From Cyanobacteria bacterium MAG CAR3_bin_5 (GTDB lineage: Bacteria; Cyanobacteriota; Cyanobacteriia; PCC-6307; Cyanobiaceae): DNA of 32,423 bases. Under the pieces are notes generated by a model that saw only the letters and a program-made list of their open reading frames with translations, had not been told where the DNA came from and searched no databases. Position 1 is the first letter of the stretch. Each line of letters starts with the position of its first letter. The position numbers were made by a program, and so were the translations under genes. The stretch lies in assembly GCA_026709085.1 (NCBI GenBank), contig JAPOTR010000058.1, positions 1 through 32,423 on the forward strand, read 5' to 3'. Of the stretch, positions 16,428-23,766 are shown one piece after another.

Positions 16428-16522
16428 CTGATCAATTCAGACCAGGGGGACGGTTCACGGCCACTGTGAGCCTGCGTACAGTTGGGCCACAAGCCCGATC
16501 CAAATTTCCTGGTGATCCCCCT

Positions 16523-19500
16523 ATGGCCAGCGCCGAGACACAGAACCTTATCACAAAGGCCATACGTGTTATCCACGAGATGAGCCCACAGGAGACGGAT
16601 GGAATCTGGCTTGAAGACCTTACCGTTCAGATTGGCCCCCACATCAAGGAGTGGGACATCACCTGTTGCTACCCCTGGTCGCAGTGGCCGGAGAGGGAAA
16701 GGCTCTATCCCGCTTCCAACCGCCAGGATGTGGGAATCGATGTTGTGGGGGTCCGCAGCGATCACCAGCTTGTCGCCATTCAGTGCAAGTCCCGCAAGCT
16801 GAACGCGGATGGCCGAGGTGGCCCCATCCACAAGGCTGAAATCGATAAGTTCATCAGCGCAACCGCAGCCCCCCACTGGACAGAGCGGTGGATCGTCACC
16901 AACGGTGACAACCACCTCAGCGACAACGTCCACGCGGCCGTTGCCCAGGGCCAGATCCCCATCAAGACAGTCAACATCACCAACGACCTGTTGCAACAGC
17001 AGACCGCCTTCGCCGATGAAGAAGGCTCTCACTGCCATCCCGGCCCCGATAGCGAGGAAGGCCATCAGACCAAAACCGACATGCAAGCCGAGGCCATCGC
17101 CGCAAGCGTCCGCATCCTCAGAGAGCATGAGCGGTCGGAGAGTGGCGGACTGCCCGTCGGCCAAGCCCGGGGCAAGATCATTCTGCCCTGCGGAACCGGC
17201 AAAACCCGCATCTCCTTGCGCATTGTGGAGGAACTGACGCCGCCGGGGGAACTGTCCGCTGTCCTCTGTCCGTCCATTGCACTGGTGGCCCAGATCCGGC
17301 GGGAATACCTGCAGAACGCCAAAGACAGCATTCGTGTCCTGGCGGTGTGTTCCGACGAGACAGCGGGCTACGATCCGAAGAAGGAAGGATCGCGCAATAC
17401 TGCCAAAGATCCCACGGTTGACAACAGTAACGTCAGCGCTTCGGAGGTGAGAGGCAAGGTCACCACCAGCCCGGATGAAATCGCTGACTGGATTCGCGAG
17501 GGACGGGAAAGTGGCAGGAGAAGCGTAATTTTCGGAACCTACCAGAGCGGCCATCGTGTGGCCGAGGCTTTGACAAAGACGGGCACCACGGCCAAAGTCC
17601 TTATCGCTGACGAAGCCCACCGCACCGCCGGACTGCGGAGGAGGAGGCGCAAAGCCAGCGAAGGCGTGCTCTCAGAGGAGGCGCAACGGATACGGGATTT
17701 CACCTTGTGCCATGACAATGACGCTTTTCCAGTTACCTACCGGGTGTACCAGACGGCCACGCCGCGAATCTACGATACGCGGAAGGTCAACCGGGACCAG
17801 GCCAGCGATTGGGTCGTCCGAACCATGGACGACGAAACAGTTTTCGGGGTGGAACTCTACCGCAAGAGCTACGTTGAGGCGGTGGAGAAAGGCTGGCTGG
17901 CTGATTACCGCATTATTGCCCTGGGCATCAACGATCCAGAGTCCTATCAGGCCGCCAAGCGACTGGCCAACAACACCAAGAGCAAGGGCCGCCATGCCCT
18001 GACCACAACGGACTACCTCCGCGGTTTGGCCTTTGTCCTGGCCATGGGCGGGGCGACGCAGGGGCGTGGGAACGCAGACGTGCCGCTCAAGTCTTGCATT
18101 GCCTTCATGAACACCGTGGACAAGTCCAAGAACATGGCGCAAGACCTGGCAACCGATACGGTCAGAGAATGGCTTCAGAAGTGGCTGCACGACAACCGGG
18201 GACACCAGGCTGCCGCCAACTACACCCTGGAACATCTGGATGCCACAAGCAACGTTGCCGCCCGGGACAGCGCCAAGCGCCGGCTGGCGAAATCCAGCAA
18301 AACCAGTCCCTACGGCATCATCAATGTCGGCATCTTTGGCGAGGGTACCGACTCGCCTTCATTGAGCGCCGTAGCGTTCCTCGAACCTCGCAAGAGCCCC
18401 ATCGACGTCATCCAGGCAGTAGGCCGGGCCATGCGCACTGCCCCCGACAAAGACACGGGATACATCATCTGCCCCATCCTGATTCCCGCCAGCGCCGACC
18501 CTGAACAGTGGCTCAGCGTCAGCAGCATGGAAGAAGGCTGGCAGGAACTGGGCCAGATTCTCCTGGCCTTGCGCGCCCATGATTCCCGTATTGAGGACAA
18601 CCTGGAGGATTTGCTGCAACTTTACGTCCCCAAGCCGCCGGAAACTCTGGGGACCATCGTTGCCGTTGCCAGAGGGGAGGACAGACGTATCTCTTACTGG
18701 AAACACCAGGGACCGCCTGGAGAGGCGCAAAAAGCCATGGAGCGCGTCCTGGGGGGTAAAAGCACCCCGGCCGATGAATTCAATCCCATCGTTGAGGAAC
18801 AGTTCAATGATTCCCATACCAGTAGCGTCCCGGGGAACGTGGCGGAACCCACGCAGATCATTGCCGGCAAGAAGAACGATGACGGCAGCCTGGAATTGCG
18901 CATGGATAGCGTCGCCAGAACCGACCCGGCGCCTGACGGCACTCCCGGAAGGCTGGATATCAGGAAATCCAAAGGCAAAGGCAAAGACATGATCAATAAG
19001 GGGACGGGTGTAAGACTGCCCCACAGCAGCAAGCAGAGAAAACGCCGGACCCGCCGGGAAATGGGGGAACATTACGCCCTGCAGATGTTGCTGCTCAGCG
19101 GCATGGACGAATACGGTAACGCCATCAAGATGAACCTGCTGTCCAGGTCCGGCCTGGTGAATAACAAGGTGGTTCGAGATTTGAACATCCTGGAAAGCAG
19201 TGTCAAAGAGGCTGCCCACCACCTGAATGCCGACGGCCTGCAATCAGAGCTATGCAGACACTTTGGATTGGGCAACCTGAAGAAGAAAGATCTTAATAAG
19301 CAGGCCGACGGTTGCACCATTGCCGCCCTGCTGATGATGAACGCGGCCATGCTCCACCAGCGCATCGCCAACGGCCGCTGGCTCTCCGGCGTCAGCCACC
19401 TGGACAGCGTGAAGAACGACGTCAACGTGGTGCATCGGATCAGTCAGGAATGGAACCAGATCATGCGCCACGACTTCCGGCCTGTGTTGAAACCAGCGGT

Positions 19501-21847
19501 CAGTGTAATAGAAACCATTGAAGATACTGGCAAGCTGGCCGGGTTGGAACGTGCCCTGCGGCACATCGCCGCTGAAGCAGAACGTATTGCGGAAACCTAT
19601 GCTGATATGGGAGCCGACCACGCTGGACCGCTGTTCAACCGGGTTATGGGCAACCAGGAGAGCGACAGCGCCTTCTTCACCCGCCCCGTTGCCGCTTCCA
19701 TCGCCGCCCGCCTCACCCTGGACGTTTGTGGCGATGTGAACTGGGCAGACCGAAATGTTTGGGAAGCCCATAAGACTGTGGACCTGGCCTGTGGCAGCGG
19801 CACCCTGCTGGCAGCGATGCTTACCGATATGAAACGCCGCGCCAGAAATCATGGAGCTAATGAGGATGAAATAGCAGAACTGCAAAAGCTGGCTGTTGAA
19901 GAAACCATCAAGGGACTGGATATTAACCCGGTGTCCTTGCAACTGGCAGCATCACAACTGACTGCTGGAAACCATGAGATCCGTTACCGGAATATGGGAT
20001 TGTATAAGATGTCCTATGGACCGTCTCAGGACAATAAGTTTACTTATCTTTCAGCAGGTACTATCTCAGCAGGTAGCTTAGAACTATTAATGCAAAAGGC
20101 AATTGTATCCAGAGATAACGAACTAGATTTATCCGAATACAATGCACTCAAGTCTAAGAATGTCTGGGGTAAATCTGACAATTCTGAATTAGGAAATGAA
20201 GTAAGCGCATCTAAAGATGCTCAAATCATAATAATGAATCCACCATTTTCAAGCAGAAGCAATGTGGGAAAGAAGTTTCAATCTTATGTACAAAAAGCAT
20301 TACGGAAACGCATTGACTTAATTGAGACAAATCTGATACATAATGATGAGAATATGAATGACTTTGTAGATAAGAATTCTATAGGTCCATTATTTATTGC
20401 GTTGGCAGACCGATGTGTAAATCAAGATAATGGCATTATTACTATGATTCATCCTACAATTTCATTATGCAATGTATTGGCAGAGCAAGAAAGGAAACTT
20501 CTTACGCAAAGATACCATATTCATACCATTCTTACTTGTCATGAACCCAGCAATTATAATCTTGTTCAACAAAGTAATATTAATGAAAGCATTATGGTAC
20601 TGAAACGCAATAATAGTCATGATTTTCCTACTAGATTTATTCAACTAGACAGGCTTCCAGTAAATGAAGTTGAAGTAAATAAATTGCATCAATGTATCAT
20701 TCACTGCCAGAAAGGACAAATGCAAGAAGGTTGGGGAGAAATATTCTACTGGCCTGCTGAGTATATCAAGGCTGGAGATTGGACGCAAGCAATTTGGCGT
20801 TCTAATAAGTTGGCAAAAGCAGCGACAAAGTTTTCTAATGATAAGGAATTAATTGCAATCAAAGAAATCTCAGGTGTACATATCCATTCAACTTATCAAA
20901 CATTATACAAAAATTTTGAAGAATCAGAACTGGAAATACCAGAGAGTTTTCCAATTTTAGCATCTACTGGAGCCGACGGCCAGCTTACCATTAAGAGTAA
21001 TCCAGATCAACATCGACGAAAAAATAAAAATAGTTCCCATTTAACAACTGAAAAGATGCTCAATAAGGCTGCTTATTTGCTAATTGTCATGGCTCAACGT
21101 AATACAACTGGTCGTCTTGCTGCTTGTGCTGATCTCAGAAAATACGTAGGAATAGGATATATTCCAATAACGGGATTTACTATAAATGAGTCTAAAGCAG
21201 TTGCTGTATTTATCAATTCAACCCCAGGAAGGCTGCAACTGATGAGAAATCCAACACGTACATTGGAATTTCCTAGATATAATCCAGCAGCATCTGAGAA
21301 GATTCGCATACCCAATATTAAGGATAATAATATCATCTGCCAAACCCTTGCCAACTGCTGGGAGCACACAAAAAATATGGAAGTGCCCCAGTATAGAGAC
21401 GGCGAGTGTGAAGTGCGACGCCTGTGGGATGAAGCTGTTGCCAAAGCCATGGACTGGGATCCTGCCGAACTGGAGCGCTTGCGCCTGTTGCTCCATCGGG
21501 AACCCCATGTCTGTGGCATGGGTTACAACCAGTACGCCGACGAAGTGGAAGTCCAACCCGCAGATCGCCAAAGCTTCCAGGAATTGGCTGACCGATGGGA
21601 GGCGGAAACAGCACTGTTGTCCAACTTGGAGCGGTCAGCCCAACATCCCGCCCATCAGGAAATTGTCACCATGGGAAAAGCGGCGGTCCCCCTGATCCTG
21701 GAGAGGATACGCTCCCAGGGGGGGCTCTGGTTCCATGCCTTGTCCGCAATCACCGGCGCCAATCCGGTAGCGCCTGACGATCACGGAAACGTTGCAGCCA
21801 TGCAGGAATCCTGGCTGAAGTGGGGCGAACGTAATGGATATGGTTAG
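16523..21847 (+). CDS. Single-chain restriction-modification enzyme, type ISP (LlaGI/LlaBIII-like)
   Basis: This intact 1774-residue protein has the domain order of type ISP enzymes, which cut DNA after ATP-driven translocation and methylate adenine in the same chain. An Mrr-like nuclease comes first, with GID at Asp73 and the QCK pair Gln87/Lys89. The SF2 helicase follows: CGTGKT (223-228), DEAH (363-366), TATPRIY (411-417) and QAVGRAMR (631-638). A basic spacer (KQRKRRTRR) leads to the N6-adenine methyltransferase with DLACGSG (1087-1093) and NPPF (1239-1242), then the target recognition region. Family members I know are near 1,600 residues; the extra length includes a C-terminal domain of about 95 residues that looks like a separate small protein. 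The start chosen is the ATG at 16523; a GTG at 16466 is also open. Residues about 1157-1610 are coded by AT-rich DNA unlike the rest. Promoter and target site are unknown. Confidence 0.88.
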   Translation: MASAETQNLITKAIRVIHEMSPQETDGIWLEDLTVQIGPHIKEWDITCCYPWSQWPERERLYPASNRQDVGIDVVGVRSDHQLVAIQCKSRKLNADGRGGPIHKAEIDKFISATAAPHWTERWIVTNGDNHLSDNVHAAVAQGQIPIKTVNITNDLLQQQTAFADEEGSHCHPGPDSEEGHQTKTDMQAEAIAASVRILREHERSESGGLPVGQARGKIILPCGTGKTRISLRIVEELTPPGELSAVLCPSIALVAQIRREYLQNAKDSIRVLAVCSDETAGYDPKKEGSRNTAKDPTVDNSNVSASEVRGKVTTSPDEIADWIREGRESGRRSVIFGTYQSGHRVAEALTKTGTTAKVLIADEAHRTAGLRRRRRKASEGVLSEEAQRIRDFTLCHDNDAFPVTYRVYQTATPRIYDTRKVNRDQASDWVVRTMDDETVFGVELYRKSYVEAVEKGWLADYRIIALGINDPESYQAAKRLANNTKSKGRHALTTTDYLRGLAFVLAMGGATQGRGNADVPLKSCIAFMNTVDKSKNMAQDLATDTVREWLQKWLHDNRGHQAAANYTLEHLDATSNVAARDSAKRRLAKSSKTSPYGIINVGIFGEGTDSPSLSAVAFLEPRKSPIDVIQAVGRAMRTAPDKDTGYIICPILIPASADPEQWLSVSSMEEGWQELGQILLALRAHDSRIEDNLEDLLQLYVPKPPETLGTIVAVARGEDRRISYWKHQGPPGEAQKAMERVLGGKSTPADEFNPIVEEQFNDSHTSSVPGNVAEPTQIIAGKKNDDGSLELRMDSVARTDPAPDGTPGRLDIRKSKGKGKDMINKGTGVRLPHSSKQRKRRTRREMGEHYALQMLLLSGMDEYGNAIKMNLLSRSGLVNNKVVRDLNILESSVKEAAHHLNADGLQSELCRHFGLGNLKKKDLNKQADGCTIAALLMMNAAMLHQRIANGRWLSGVSHLDSVKNDVNVVHRISQEWNQIMRHDFRPVLKPAVSVIETIEDTGKLAGLERALRHIAAEAERIAETYADMGADHAGPLFNRVMGNQESDSAFFTRPVAASIAARLTLDVCGDVNWADRNVWEAHKTVDLACGSGTLLAAMLTDMKRRARNHGANEDEIAELQKLAVEETIKGLDINPVSLQLAASQLTAGNHEIRYRNMGLYKMSYGPSQDNKFTYLSAGTISAGSLELLMQKAIVSRDNELDLSEYNALKSKNVWGKSDNSELGNEVSASKDAQIIIMNPPFSSRSNVGKKFQSYVQKALRKRIDLIETNLIHNDENMNDFVDKNSIGPLFIALADRCVNQDNGIITMIHPTISLCNVLAEQERKLLTQRYHIHTILTCHEPSNYNLVQQSNINESIMVLKRNNSHDFPTRFIQLDRLPVNEVEVNKLHQCIIHCQKGQMQEGWGEIFYWPAEYIKAGDWTQAIWRSNKLAKAATKFSNDKELIAIKEISGVHIHSTYQTLYKNFEESELEIPESFPILASTGADGQLTIKSNPDQHRRKNKNSSHLTTEKMLNKAAYLLIVMAQRNTTGRLAACADLRKYVGIGYIPITGFTINESKAVAVFINSTPGRLQLMRNPTRTLEFPRYNPAASEKIRIPNIKDNNIICQTLANCWEHTKNMEVPQYRDGECEVRRLWDEAVAKAMDWDPAELERLRLLLHREPHVCGMGYNQYADEVEVQPADRQSFQELADRWEAETALLSNLERSAQHPAHQEIVTMGKAAVPLILERIRSQGGLWFHALSAITGANPVAPDDHGNVAAMQESWLKWGERNGYG
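19990..21350 (+). other. AT-rich block inside the restriction-modification gene
   Basis: Hand counts of single 60-base lines give about 63% GC at 17221, 55% at 19801, 43% at 19981, 33% at 20101, 27% at 20341, 38% at 21241, then 52% at 21361 and 58% at 21421. The block begins after methyltransferase motif I and ends after the presumed recognition region, with frame kept throughout. Codon choice shifts to AAT, ATT, AAA and TTA. This is what a recently swapped specificity cassette would look like. Confidence 0.8.
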
Positions 21848-22286
21848 ATGGACGCAGCAACTTATCTCAGCGTTTCCGCAGCTTGCCAGCGAAGGTTATG
21901 AAATCGTAGGTGATCCTACAGAGCAATACAACTGCATTGCCTACGCTGCAGGTGACACCAGCCGATGGTGGGAGCACAGCGAAAACCACCACTGGCCCGG
22001 CTACGCGAGCCGTTCCAACAGCATGGAGAGCCTGAAACAAGTCTTCCTCGGCCTAGGTTTCCAGCCCTGCAACGACAGCAGGATGGAAGACGGCTACCAG
22101 AAGGTTGCCCTGTACGAACAGGAAGGAGCCTGGACACACGCGGCTGTTCAGATGCCCAACGGACGCTGGCGCAGCAAAATGGGCCGAGGCCCTGTTATCG
22201 AACATCAAAGCCCCCAGTCCCTATCCGGCGGCATTTACGGAGAACCCTCAACCTGCATGCGGAGAGCCACGGGCACGGTGAGTTGA
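21834..22286 (+). CDS. DUF7689-type protein overlapping the restriction-modification gene
   Basis: A 150-residue soluble protein with the conserved YNCIAYAAGDTSRWWE (Cys34), a segment around LGFQPCNDSRMEDGYQKVAL, WTHAAVQMPNGRWRSKMG (His102) and IEHQSPQSL (His124). This pattern matches what I remember of DUF7689 proteins, whose function is unknown. The invariant Cys and His are reminiscent of papain-like or NlpC/P60 catalytic pairs, but that is a guess. Its ATG at 21834 lies inside the last codons of the large upstream ORF (14-base overlap), so translation is probably coupled. A second ATG two codons later could also serve. There is no signal peptide. Confidence 0.75.
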   Translation: MDMVRWTQQLISAFPQLASEGYEIVGDPTEQYNCIAYAAGDTSRWWEHSENHHWPGYASRSNSMESLKQVFLGLGFQPCNDSRMEDGYQKVALYEQEGAWTHAAVQMPNGRWRSKMGRGPVIEHQSPQSLSGGIYGEPSTCMRRATGTVS

Positions 22287-22329: not shown

Positions 22330-23670
22330 TCAAGAACCGGCATGGTCCACCGTGACGGCTTCCAGATCGTAGAGATGGGCGGCGGTGATGCGGGCCTGGA
22401 CCAGGCTGCCCACCCGGGCCATTCCTTGCAGGTGAACCACCCCGTCCACCTCCGGCGCAAAGCGGCTGCAACGGCCCCGCTTTTCCCTGGTGGCGGGGTC
22501 TTCCTTTTCCACCAACACGGGAACAACGCGCCCCACCCAGGCCTGATTCCGCTCCTGGGCAATGGGTTGCTGAAGCTGCATGAGCCGGTCCCGGCGCGCC
22601 TGGGCCACGGCATGAGGCACGGGGTTGGGCAGGGTTGCCGCAGCGGCGCCCTCCTCCGGGGAGAAGGCGAACACCCCCACATGGTCAAACCGTTGTTGCT
22701 GGACAAACGCCTCCAGATGGGCGAAGTGGGCCTCCGTTTCCCCAGGGAACCCCACGATGAGGGTGGTGCGGATGGTGGCATCCGGCAGTTGCCGGCGCAG
22801 ACGATCCAGCAGGGCGCCGTTGACATCCGCCTGCCAGGGGCGATTCATGGCCCTGAGGATCTCCGGGTGGCTGTGTTGCAGAGGCAGATCCAGGTAGGGC
22901 AACACGTTGGGGGTCTCCCGGAACGCCGCCAACACCTGGGGCGTCAGGCCGGTGGGATAGGCGTAGTGGACCCGGATCCAGGGAATCGCCACGGTCCCCA
23001 GCATCCGCAACAACTCCGCCAGCATGGGCTTGCCGTAGCGGTCACGGCCGTAGTTGGTGGTGATCTGGCTGATGAGGATCAACTCCTGCACCCCCTGTTC
23101 CGCCAACTGCTGCGCTTCGGACCGGATGGATTCCATGGACCGGGAGCGCTGGTTGCCCCGCAGGTGGGGAATGATGCAAAAGGCGCAGCGGTAGTCGCAG
23201 CCCTCCGCCACCTTCACATAGGCCACGGCATTGGCGGTGGTGCGCTGGCGGGGCAGGTGCTCATCCGCCAGGAAGGTGGGTACAGCGCTCACCTGCTGCA
23301 CCCGCTCCCCCGCCACAACCCGCTCCAGCACGGAGACGATGTGTTGATAGTCGCCACTGCCCACCACGGCCCGGGCCTCCGGTAGGGCCTCCAGCAACTC
23401 CGCCTGGAAGTGTTGCGCCAGACAACCGGCAATGATCAGTTGTTTCCCCTCCTCCGCCAGCCGCACCAGAGTGCGCACCGACTCCTCACGCGCCTCCTGG
23501 ATGAAGCTGCAGGTGTTCACCACCACCAGATCAGCGGCGGTCTCGTCACTGCTCACCCCGTAGCCGGCCGCATCCAGCAGCCCCAGCATGTGCTCACTGT
23601 CCACCCGGTTTTTCTCGCAGCCCAGATGGGCAAAGGCCACTGTGGGGGGCTTGCCGCGGGAGCGGGTCAT
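22330..23670 (-). CDS. rimO: Ribosomal protein S12 methylthiotransferase
   Basis: A radical-SAM enzyme that adds a methylthio group to the conserved aspartate of ribosomal protein S12. The 446-residue protein has the N-terminal cluster domain with Cys18 ([12 protein letters not shown]), Cys54 (NTCSF) and Cys83 (AGCLAQ). The radical-SAM CxxxCxxC reads CDYRCAFC at 158-165, followed by [17 protein letters not shown] and [12 protein letters not shown], and a C-terminal TRAM domain from about residue 370. HLGCEKNxVD separates RimO from MiaB. The start is the ATG at 23670; the ORF is open 13 codons further. It lies tail to tail with the DUF7689 gene, 43 bases apart, and marks the return to housekeeping genes. 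Confidence 0.95.
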
Positions 23671-23766
23671 GGCGGCGGGGGCAAGCGGGAGGGGATGGGA
23701 AGTGGGCAAGGGGCTGGCAGAGTGGTGTTGCCATCATGATCCCTCACCCCGGCCGGTGCTTTAGCG

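Follow-up and report, generated by a model that had tools for sequence, protein, structure and literature searches.

A helical tail domain and a DUF7689 gene form a candidate toxin-antitoxin-like cassette attached to a single-chain restriction-modification enzyme

The restriction-modification (R-M) enzyme EcoprrI keeps PrrC silent until the enzyme is blocked by the phage T4 protein Stp (PMC2610378). PARIS has also been classed as an R-M guardian (PMC12707154). Recombination pairs antitoxin domains with new toxins (PMC8832971, PMC10440598); one established antitoxin domain, Panacea, neutralizes many toxins (PMC8832971). Known type ISP enzymes end in a target-recognition domain (PMC4872093). Here we describe a locus on contig JAPOTR010000058.1 of Cyanobacteria bacterium MAG CAR3_bin_5, of which the whole stretch analyzed (32,423 nucleotides) is called the window, where a single-chain R-M enzyme ends in an extra domain, the tail, and is followed by an overlapping gene of the DUF7689 family. 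We estimate at about 0.6 the probability that the tail and DUF7689 make up a toxin-antitoxin-like cassette with the R-M enzyme as antitoxin carrier. The modularity of the tail, its obligate pairing with DUF7689, their joint transfer and their recurrent capture by R-M enzymes are established by sequence comparison. The features of the locus are the following:

16523 (ATG; or GTG at 16466) to the stop at 21847, plus strand: R-M open reading frame (ORF), 1774 residues counted from the ATG
16523..21571, plus strand: body of the R-M enzyme, residues 1-1683, with Mrr-type nuclease, superfamily 2 (SF2) helicase, N6-adenine methyltransferase and target-recognition region
21572..21847, plus strand: C-terminal tail domain, residues 1684-1774 and stop codon, recognized from its free homologues, its absence from two enzyme homologues (L199 and L200) and a six-helix model
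21834..22286, plus strand: DUF7689 gene, 150 residues, recognized from a PF24738 match and an AlphaFold2 (AF2) model
21834..21847, plus strand: overlap of 14 bases between the end of the tail, with its stop, and the start of DUF7689

The original prediction, made from this DNA alone, had pointed to a small all-helical domain at the C-terminus of the enzyme and to a DUF7689 gene overlapping the R-M stop codon by 14 bases, and both were confirmed: the gene at 21834-22286 runs across the stop at 21847 and its product matches PF24738 (E 4e-35), while the tail (about 91 residues, 21572-21844), which contains the motifs quoted in that prediction, was modeled with six predicted helices and no other secondary structure (mean predicted local distance difference test score, pLDDT, 86.9). 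The tail matched no family in Pfam, NCBIfam or PADLOC, and comparison of its model with solved structures gave nothing convincing (best Z-score 4.0) and no known antitoxin or inhibitor fold that could be named. Among 244 cyanobacterial genomes it occurred 20 times, in 15 genomes that include the window's own, mostly as ORFs of 75-260 residues with DUF7689 directly downstream; the similarity goes well past what chance would give, with E-values down to 3e-25 for free-standing homologues. When 84,980 species genomes were scanned, 244 relatives were confirmed, 80 of which were taken into the locus analysis; these came from Cyanobacteriota, Chloroflexota, Planctomycetota, Nitrospirota, Armatimonadota, Verrucomicrobiota, Chlorobiota, Pseudomonadota and other phyla, and the free-standing tail gene with DUF7689 next to it was spread over about ten phyla.

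Within the family of the window enzyme the tail is carried by four members (the window enzyme, L173 from genome G244, L057 and L041), which are about 59-66% identical along the whole chain, and it is not constant, since two homologues end just before it. One of them (L199) is 64% identical to the window enzyme over 1662 residues, ends ...LLHREPHVRGLGYNQFADEPAA-stop and has no DUF7689 within roughly 1.1 kb downstream; the other (L200) is 48% identical and stops at the same point, with just 300 bases of its contig remaining downstream. In a tree of enzyme bodies the tail-less L199 fell inside the tail-bearing group. The possibility that the tail is a standard part of type ISP enzymes was ruled out by these two homologues, and at the level of sequence the tail is a real added module. 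Searches of plasmids gave no match to the tail; the full window enzyme was matched there by canonical type ISP enzymes through its N-terminal half alone, at about 30% identity.

The original prediction also held that the tail exists elsewhere as a free-standing gene beside DUF7689, and tabulation of neighbors showed this to be almost always so. Among the tail-centered loci with enough downstream sequence (n=78), DUF7689 was intact in 48, broken or partial in 20 and missing in 10, and an intact copy usually overlapped the tail gene or started within 40 bases of it. Conversely, DUF7689-centered searches found the tail upstream in 42 of 43 assessable intact loci; a DUF7689 gene with no visible tail (L031), lying 149 bases from the end of its sequence stretch, was excluded from this count. 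By source of the loci, the tail preceded DUF7689 in 21/22 loci of viral contigs, as well as the intact copies of Planctomycetota, Gammaproteobacteria and Cyanobacteria, bar one at the end of its stretch. Tail and DUF7689 distances correlated across loci (Mantel r 0.76, reached in 0 of 2000 permutations), purifying selection acted on both genes in almost every pairwise comparison (dN/dS, the ratio of nonsynonymous to synonymous substitution rates, mostly 0.1-0.3; for the window against L128, 0.19 for the tail and 0.26 for DUF7689), and the 14-base overlap recurred unchanged in two other loci (L040 and L128). No natural fusion of tail and DUF7689 in a single ORF was present among the loci examined. 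Loss of the partner was asymmetric: the tail lacked an intact DUF7689 in 30 of 78 loci, against 1 of 43 intact DUF7689 genes without a tail (Fisher p 2.7e-6), which is the pattern expected of an antitoxin and its toxin. As in type II toxin-antitoxin systems, the putative toxin is thus kept only with its partner, which may outlive it (1/43 against 30/78), and the two small genes are co-directional and adjacent or overlapping with the putative antitoxin first, the first gene of the window being the R-M fusion.

In nearly every locus the tail lies at or near the C-terminus of its carrier and precedes DUF7689, and the N-terminal part of the carrier varies. One carrier (L019) starts with a SocA_Panacea domain (E 1.8e-23) and another (L014) with DUF433 (E 2.6e-22), which we take to be an antitoxin-type domain; about a dozen cyanobacterial loci share a domain like ribbon-helix-helix (RHH) proteins, with a marginal RHH_1 match in L066 (E 5e-4), and a further carrier (L015) contains GAF domains. 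An antitoxin or DNA-binding domain on the first gene was seen in the Panacea, DUF433 and RHH-like carriers, most of the others being unmatched. The RHH-like carriers were the most informative of these. Two genomes (G039 and G229) encode RHH-like relatives that have no tail, end ...KNAELYKKLA-stop or similarly, and have a Doc toxin gene directly after them, overlapping or nearly so (TIGR01550 above cut-off for two); in the same genomes the tailed RHH-like version has DUF7689 next, not Doc. Since Doc stands in this position behind the tail-less relatives, DUF7689 would thus occupy the place of a toxin, and the tail that of the toxin-specific part of an antitoxin. The standalone RHH-like antitoxin was found in genomes and had no match on plasmids. 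The more general idea that carrier domains are antitoxins was dropped, as recognizable antitoxin types are a minority.

Two further kinds of carrier were observed. At L151:3115-3993 a sigma-70 factor, of which the N-terminal half is present (Sigma70_r2, E 4e-11), carries the tail and is followed by DUF7689, and the NCBIfam matches of this sigma-like carrier include MzaA of the MZA anti-phage system. Six viral contigs (L155, L157, L158, L159, L164, L165) encode divergent tail proteins that start with a hydrophobic signal-like segment (MQL...KP.TL..G...) seen in no other carrier, and the cell location of these proteins could differ from that of the other carriers.

The DUF7689 protein of the window matches PF24738 over residues 24-142 (121.5 bits against a cut-off of 22.6), and its AF2 model has a mean pLDDT of 95.7. 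The best structural matches of this model, obtained with two programs, were papain-like proteins: NlpC/P60 peptidases, AvrPphB, staphopain, Tse1/Tae3 and a papain-like toxin/immunity pair (Z 4.3-6.0). The predicted papain-like fold rests on the agreement among these weak matches. Asn33-Cys34, His102, Trp112 and Ser114 were invariant in alignments of 49 and of 75 sequences, and two of these residues are proposed to be catalytic:

21933..21935, plus strand: codon of DUF7689 Cys34, proposed nucleophile; invariant, begins helix 34-38 in the model
22137..22139, plus strand: codon of DUF7689 His102, proposed catalytic histidine; invariant, on strand 99-106 in the model

Because the papain-like matches agree and Cys34 and His102 are invariant, the modeled protein is likely a cysteine hydrolase.

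Tail-bearing R-M loci numbered seven, and their enzymes belong to four backbones:

Backbone 1: the window family, with the window enzyme (P1), L041, L057 and L173
Backbone 2: L040, a canonical type ISP enzyme with PF22240 and PF18135 present
Backbone 3: L070, HSDR_N_2, N6_Mtase and Methylase_S
Backbone 4: L215, HSDR_N and N6_Mtase with a specificity-like region

R-M enzymes made up 7 of the 8 carriers longer than 400 residues, and they were always single-chain nuclease-methylases. Tail identity between backbones reaches 62%, and the bodies have no more in common than the helicase or methylase core. The R-M tails formed two supported clades, one of the window, L173, L041 and L040 and the other of L057 and L070 together with free-standing L114 and L141; this result rests on supported forks of the tail tree, which also holds a duplicate of the window locus (L030), and the unlabeled duplicate inflates the change count of that tree. 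L057 has a body of the window family, yet its tail and its DUF7689 are both closest to those of L070. Because the R-M tails fall into two clades and the body and cassette of L057 differ in kin, these relationships imply that on no fewer than two occasions the whole cassette was grafted or exchanged. The suggestion that a two-gene module had been captured into an R-M operon, with one half fused, is in this way borne out by the comparison of loci. Near relatives of the whole locus of R-M enzyme, tail and DUF7689 (L041, L057, L040/L173) were observed in metagenome-assembled genomes (MAGs) of Gammaproteobacteria and Dehalococcoidia, implying transfer of the whole locus across phyla; the sample names of these MAGs presumably hint at host-associated communities.

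The toxin-antitoxin-like role guessed in the original prediction gains support, as far as gene comparisons go, because antitoxin-type carriers occur, tail-less RHH-like genes stand before Doc and loss is asymmetric. We infer toxicity of DUF7689, its direct neutralization by the tail, and the trigger. DUF7689 would be a papain-like cysteine hydrolase that works inside the cell as a growth-stopping toxin, with the helical tail of about 90 residues as its neutralizing partner. The antitoxin half of the cassette would be attached, in frame, at the 3' end of a carrier gene, which would supply expression and translational coupling; in the window genome, where the carrier is a single-chain R-M enzyme, the enzyme itself would be the antitoxin, and the 14-base overlap would favor translation of DUF7689 only once translation of the enzyme is complete. 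Somewhat short of even odds, and hence tentatively, we propose that the C-terminal domain of the enzyme neutralizes the co-encoded papain-like toxin so that disabling, destroying or losing the enzyme would release it, and that ordinary antitoxin genes and R-M enzymes of unrelated kinds have exchanged this same cassette. Loss, degradation or inhibition of the enzyme, for example through an anti-restriction protein made by a phage, would free DUF7689 and stop growth. The locus could then both serve the R-M gene as an addiction device and provide a second line of defense upon failure of restriction.

Several points weigh against this proposal. The single fold matches of DUF7689 are weak (best Foldseek E 0.03, Z no higher than 6.0), and many papain-like enzymes are not toxins. 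Of 60 carrier N-termini scanned, the majority have no Pfam match, the sigma-70 fragment and GAF matches mean that carriers are not confined to antitoxins, and the signal-like segments of some viral-contig carriers are awkward for a purely cytosolic pair. In the loss comparison (30/78 against 1/43) each search favors intact copies of its own query, tail or DUF7689, and the broken DUF7689 copies may partly be draft-assembly errors. The free-standing pairs were not clearly in defense islands, their neighbors being mostly metabolic without clear enrichment, and membership of defense islands was rejected on this ground.

The alternative that survives best, though we think it unlikely, is a plain addiction cassette, in which the toxin-antitoxin pair would gain only expression and gene retention from the R-M fusion and would not sense inhibition of restriction. 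Diverse carriers, the existence of tail-less relatives of the enzyme, and the mobile, sporadic nature of R-M genes, with nine same-genus genomes lacking a close relative of the enzyme, all suit it; the striking over-representation of R-M enzymes among large carriers (7/8), on four unrelated backbones and always as nuclease-methylase single chains, does not. Less likely still, in our view, is that the tail is a docking domain bringing a papain-like hydrolase to its carrier, here a DNA-bound R-M enzyme, with no self-toxin involved and with DUF7689 cleaving or deamidating a target or the carrier itself; a constant C-terminal tail on many carriers beside a papain-like enzyme would fit, as would the sigma-factor and GAF carriers, but asymmetric loss and the Doc comparison are better explained by toxin-antitoxin logic. 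Short overlapping genes presumably fuse easily, but chance 3'-end fusion of adjacent genes with no joint function is very unlikely because of the recurrence on unrelated R-M backbones, with seven R-M fusions, a conserved junction and overlap, joint transfer and purifying selection.

As for the enzyme itself, the type ISP label of the original prediction held for the N-terminal half, which resembles LlaBIII and LlaGI, and not for the remainder. Pfam placed Mrr_cat_2 at residues 50-153, ResIII at 186-415, Helicase_C at 559-639 and N6_Mtase at 1224-1374, PADLOC returned REase_MTase_IIG (1.8e-95), and the LlaBIII structure 4xqk matched residues 67-710 (E 1e-48), the first ~700 residues being related to LlaBIII and LlaGI. 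The type ISP layout is present, with an Mrr nuclease, an SF2 helicase, an N6-methyltransferase and a specificity region, the last a putative assignment from its position within the chain. Neither ISP_coupler (PF22240) nor Type_ISP_C (PF18135) matched the window enzyme up to E 1; since both match L040, the window enzyme is, by its domain content, ISP-like in layout rather than a canonical type ISP member. The methyltransferase/recognition segment at 19850-21400 has a guanine-plus-cytosine content of 32-38%, with sharp edges inside the ORF and surroundings of 57-65%, which suggests that the specificity segment was swapped by recombination and the gene ends retained. The island of R-M and DUF7689 genes (16523-22286) lies upstream of a converging gene at 22330-23709 on the minus strand, which from its sequence we take to be rimO-like. 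As no close relative of the enzyme was found in nine same-genus genomes, the island looks recently acquired.

The logic proposed here is that of PrrC/EcoprrI (type Ic R-M) and of R-M guardians such as PARIS, in which a growth-stopping effector is tied to a restriction enzyme and freed on its inhibition (PMC2610378, PMC12707154), the likeness of the window locus to R-M guardians being drawn from its architecture. However, PrrC is encoded within a type I locus and acts as an anticodon nuclease, whereas the effector here is the papain-like DUF7689, and the neutralizing domain lies covalently in the R-M chain and also forms a gene family of its own. Type II toxin-antitoxin systems (Phd/Doc-like, VapBC, Panacea panTA) likewise have two overlapping genes, antitoxin first, with a DNA-binding or Panacea N-terminus and a toxin-specific C-terminus, but here the antitoxin half can ride on large enzymes. 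The window enzyme shares with type ISP enzymes (LlaGI, LlaBIII) a single chain of Mrr nuclease, SF2 helicase, methyltransferase and recognition domain, and differs in the extra tail and in its own C-terminal half, which falls outside Pfam Type_ISP_C and ISP_coupler. Papain-like toxin/immunity pairs (PDB 9l5u, Tse1, Tae3-Tai3) resemble the locus in the papain-like fold (Z 4.5-5.3, predicted for DUF7689) and the dedicated partner; these are delivered to other cells, whereas DUF7689 of the window lacks a delivery domain and lies behind the gene of its partner. The DUF7689/tail pair was in none of the defense libraries used, and in the open-license literature searched there was no mention of DUF7689, nor of antitoxin-restriction fusions or papain-like toxin-antitoxin pairs of this kind. 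Toxin-antitoxin and R-M guard logic are already known; what appears new is the family, together with the covalent attachment of an antitoxin half to an R-M enzyme. The genomic evidence gives tail and DUF7689 genes a testable role and defines their cassette across about ten phyla. If the R-M fusions act as guards, restriction enzymes would have repeatedly gained a built-in fail-deadly switch via domain grafting, which would help to explain the persistence of restriction loci and would add a family of R-M guardians beside PrrC and PARIS.

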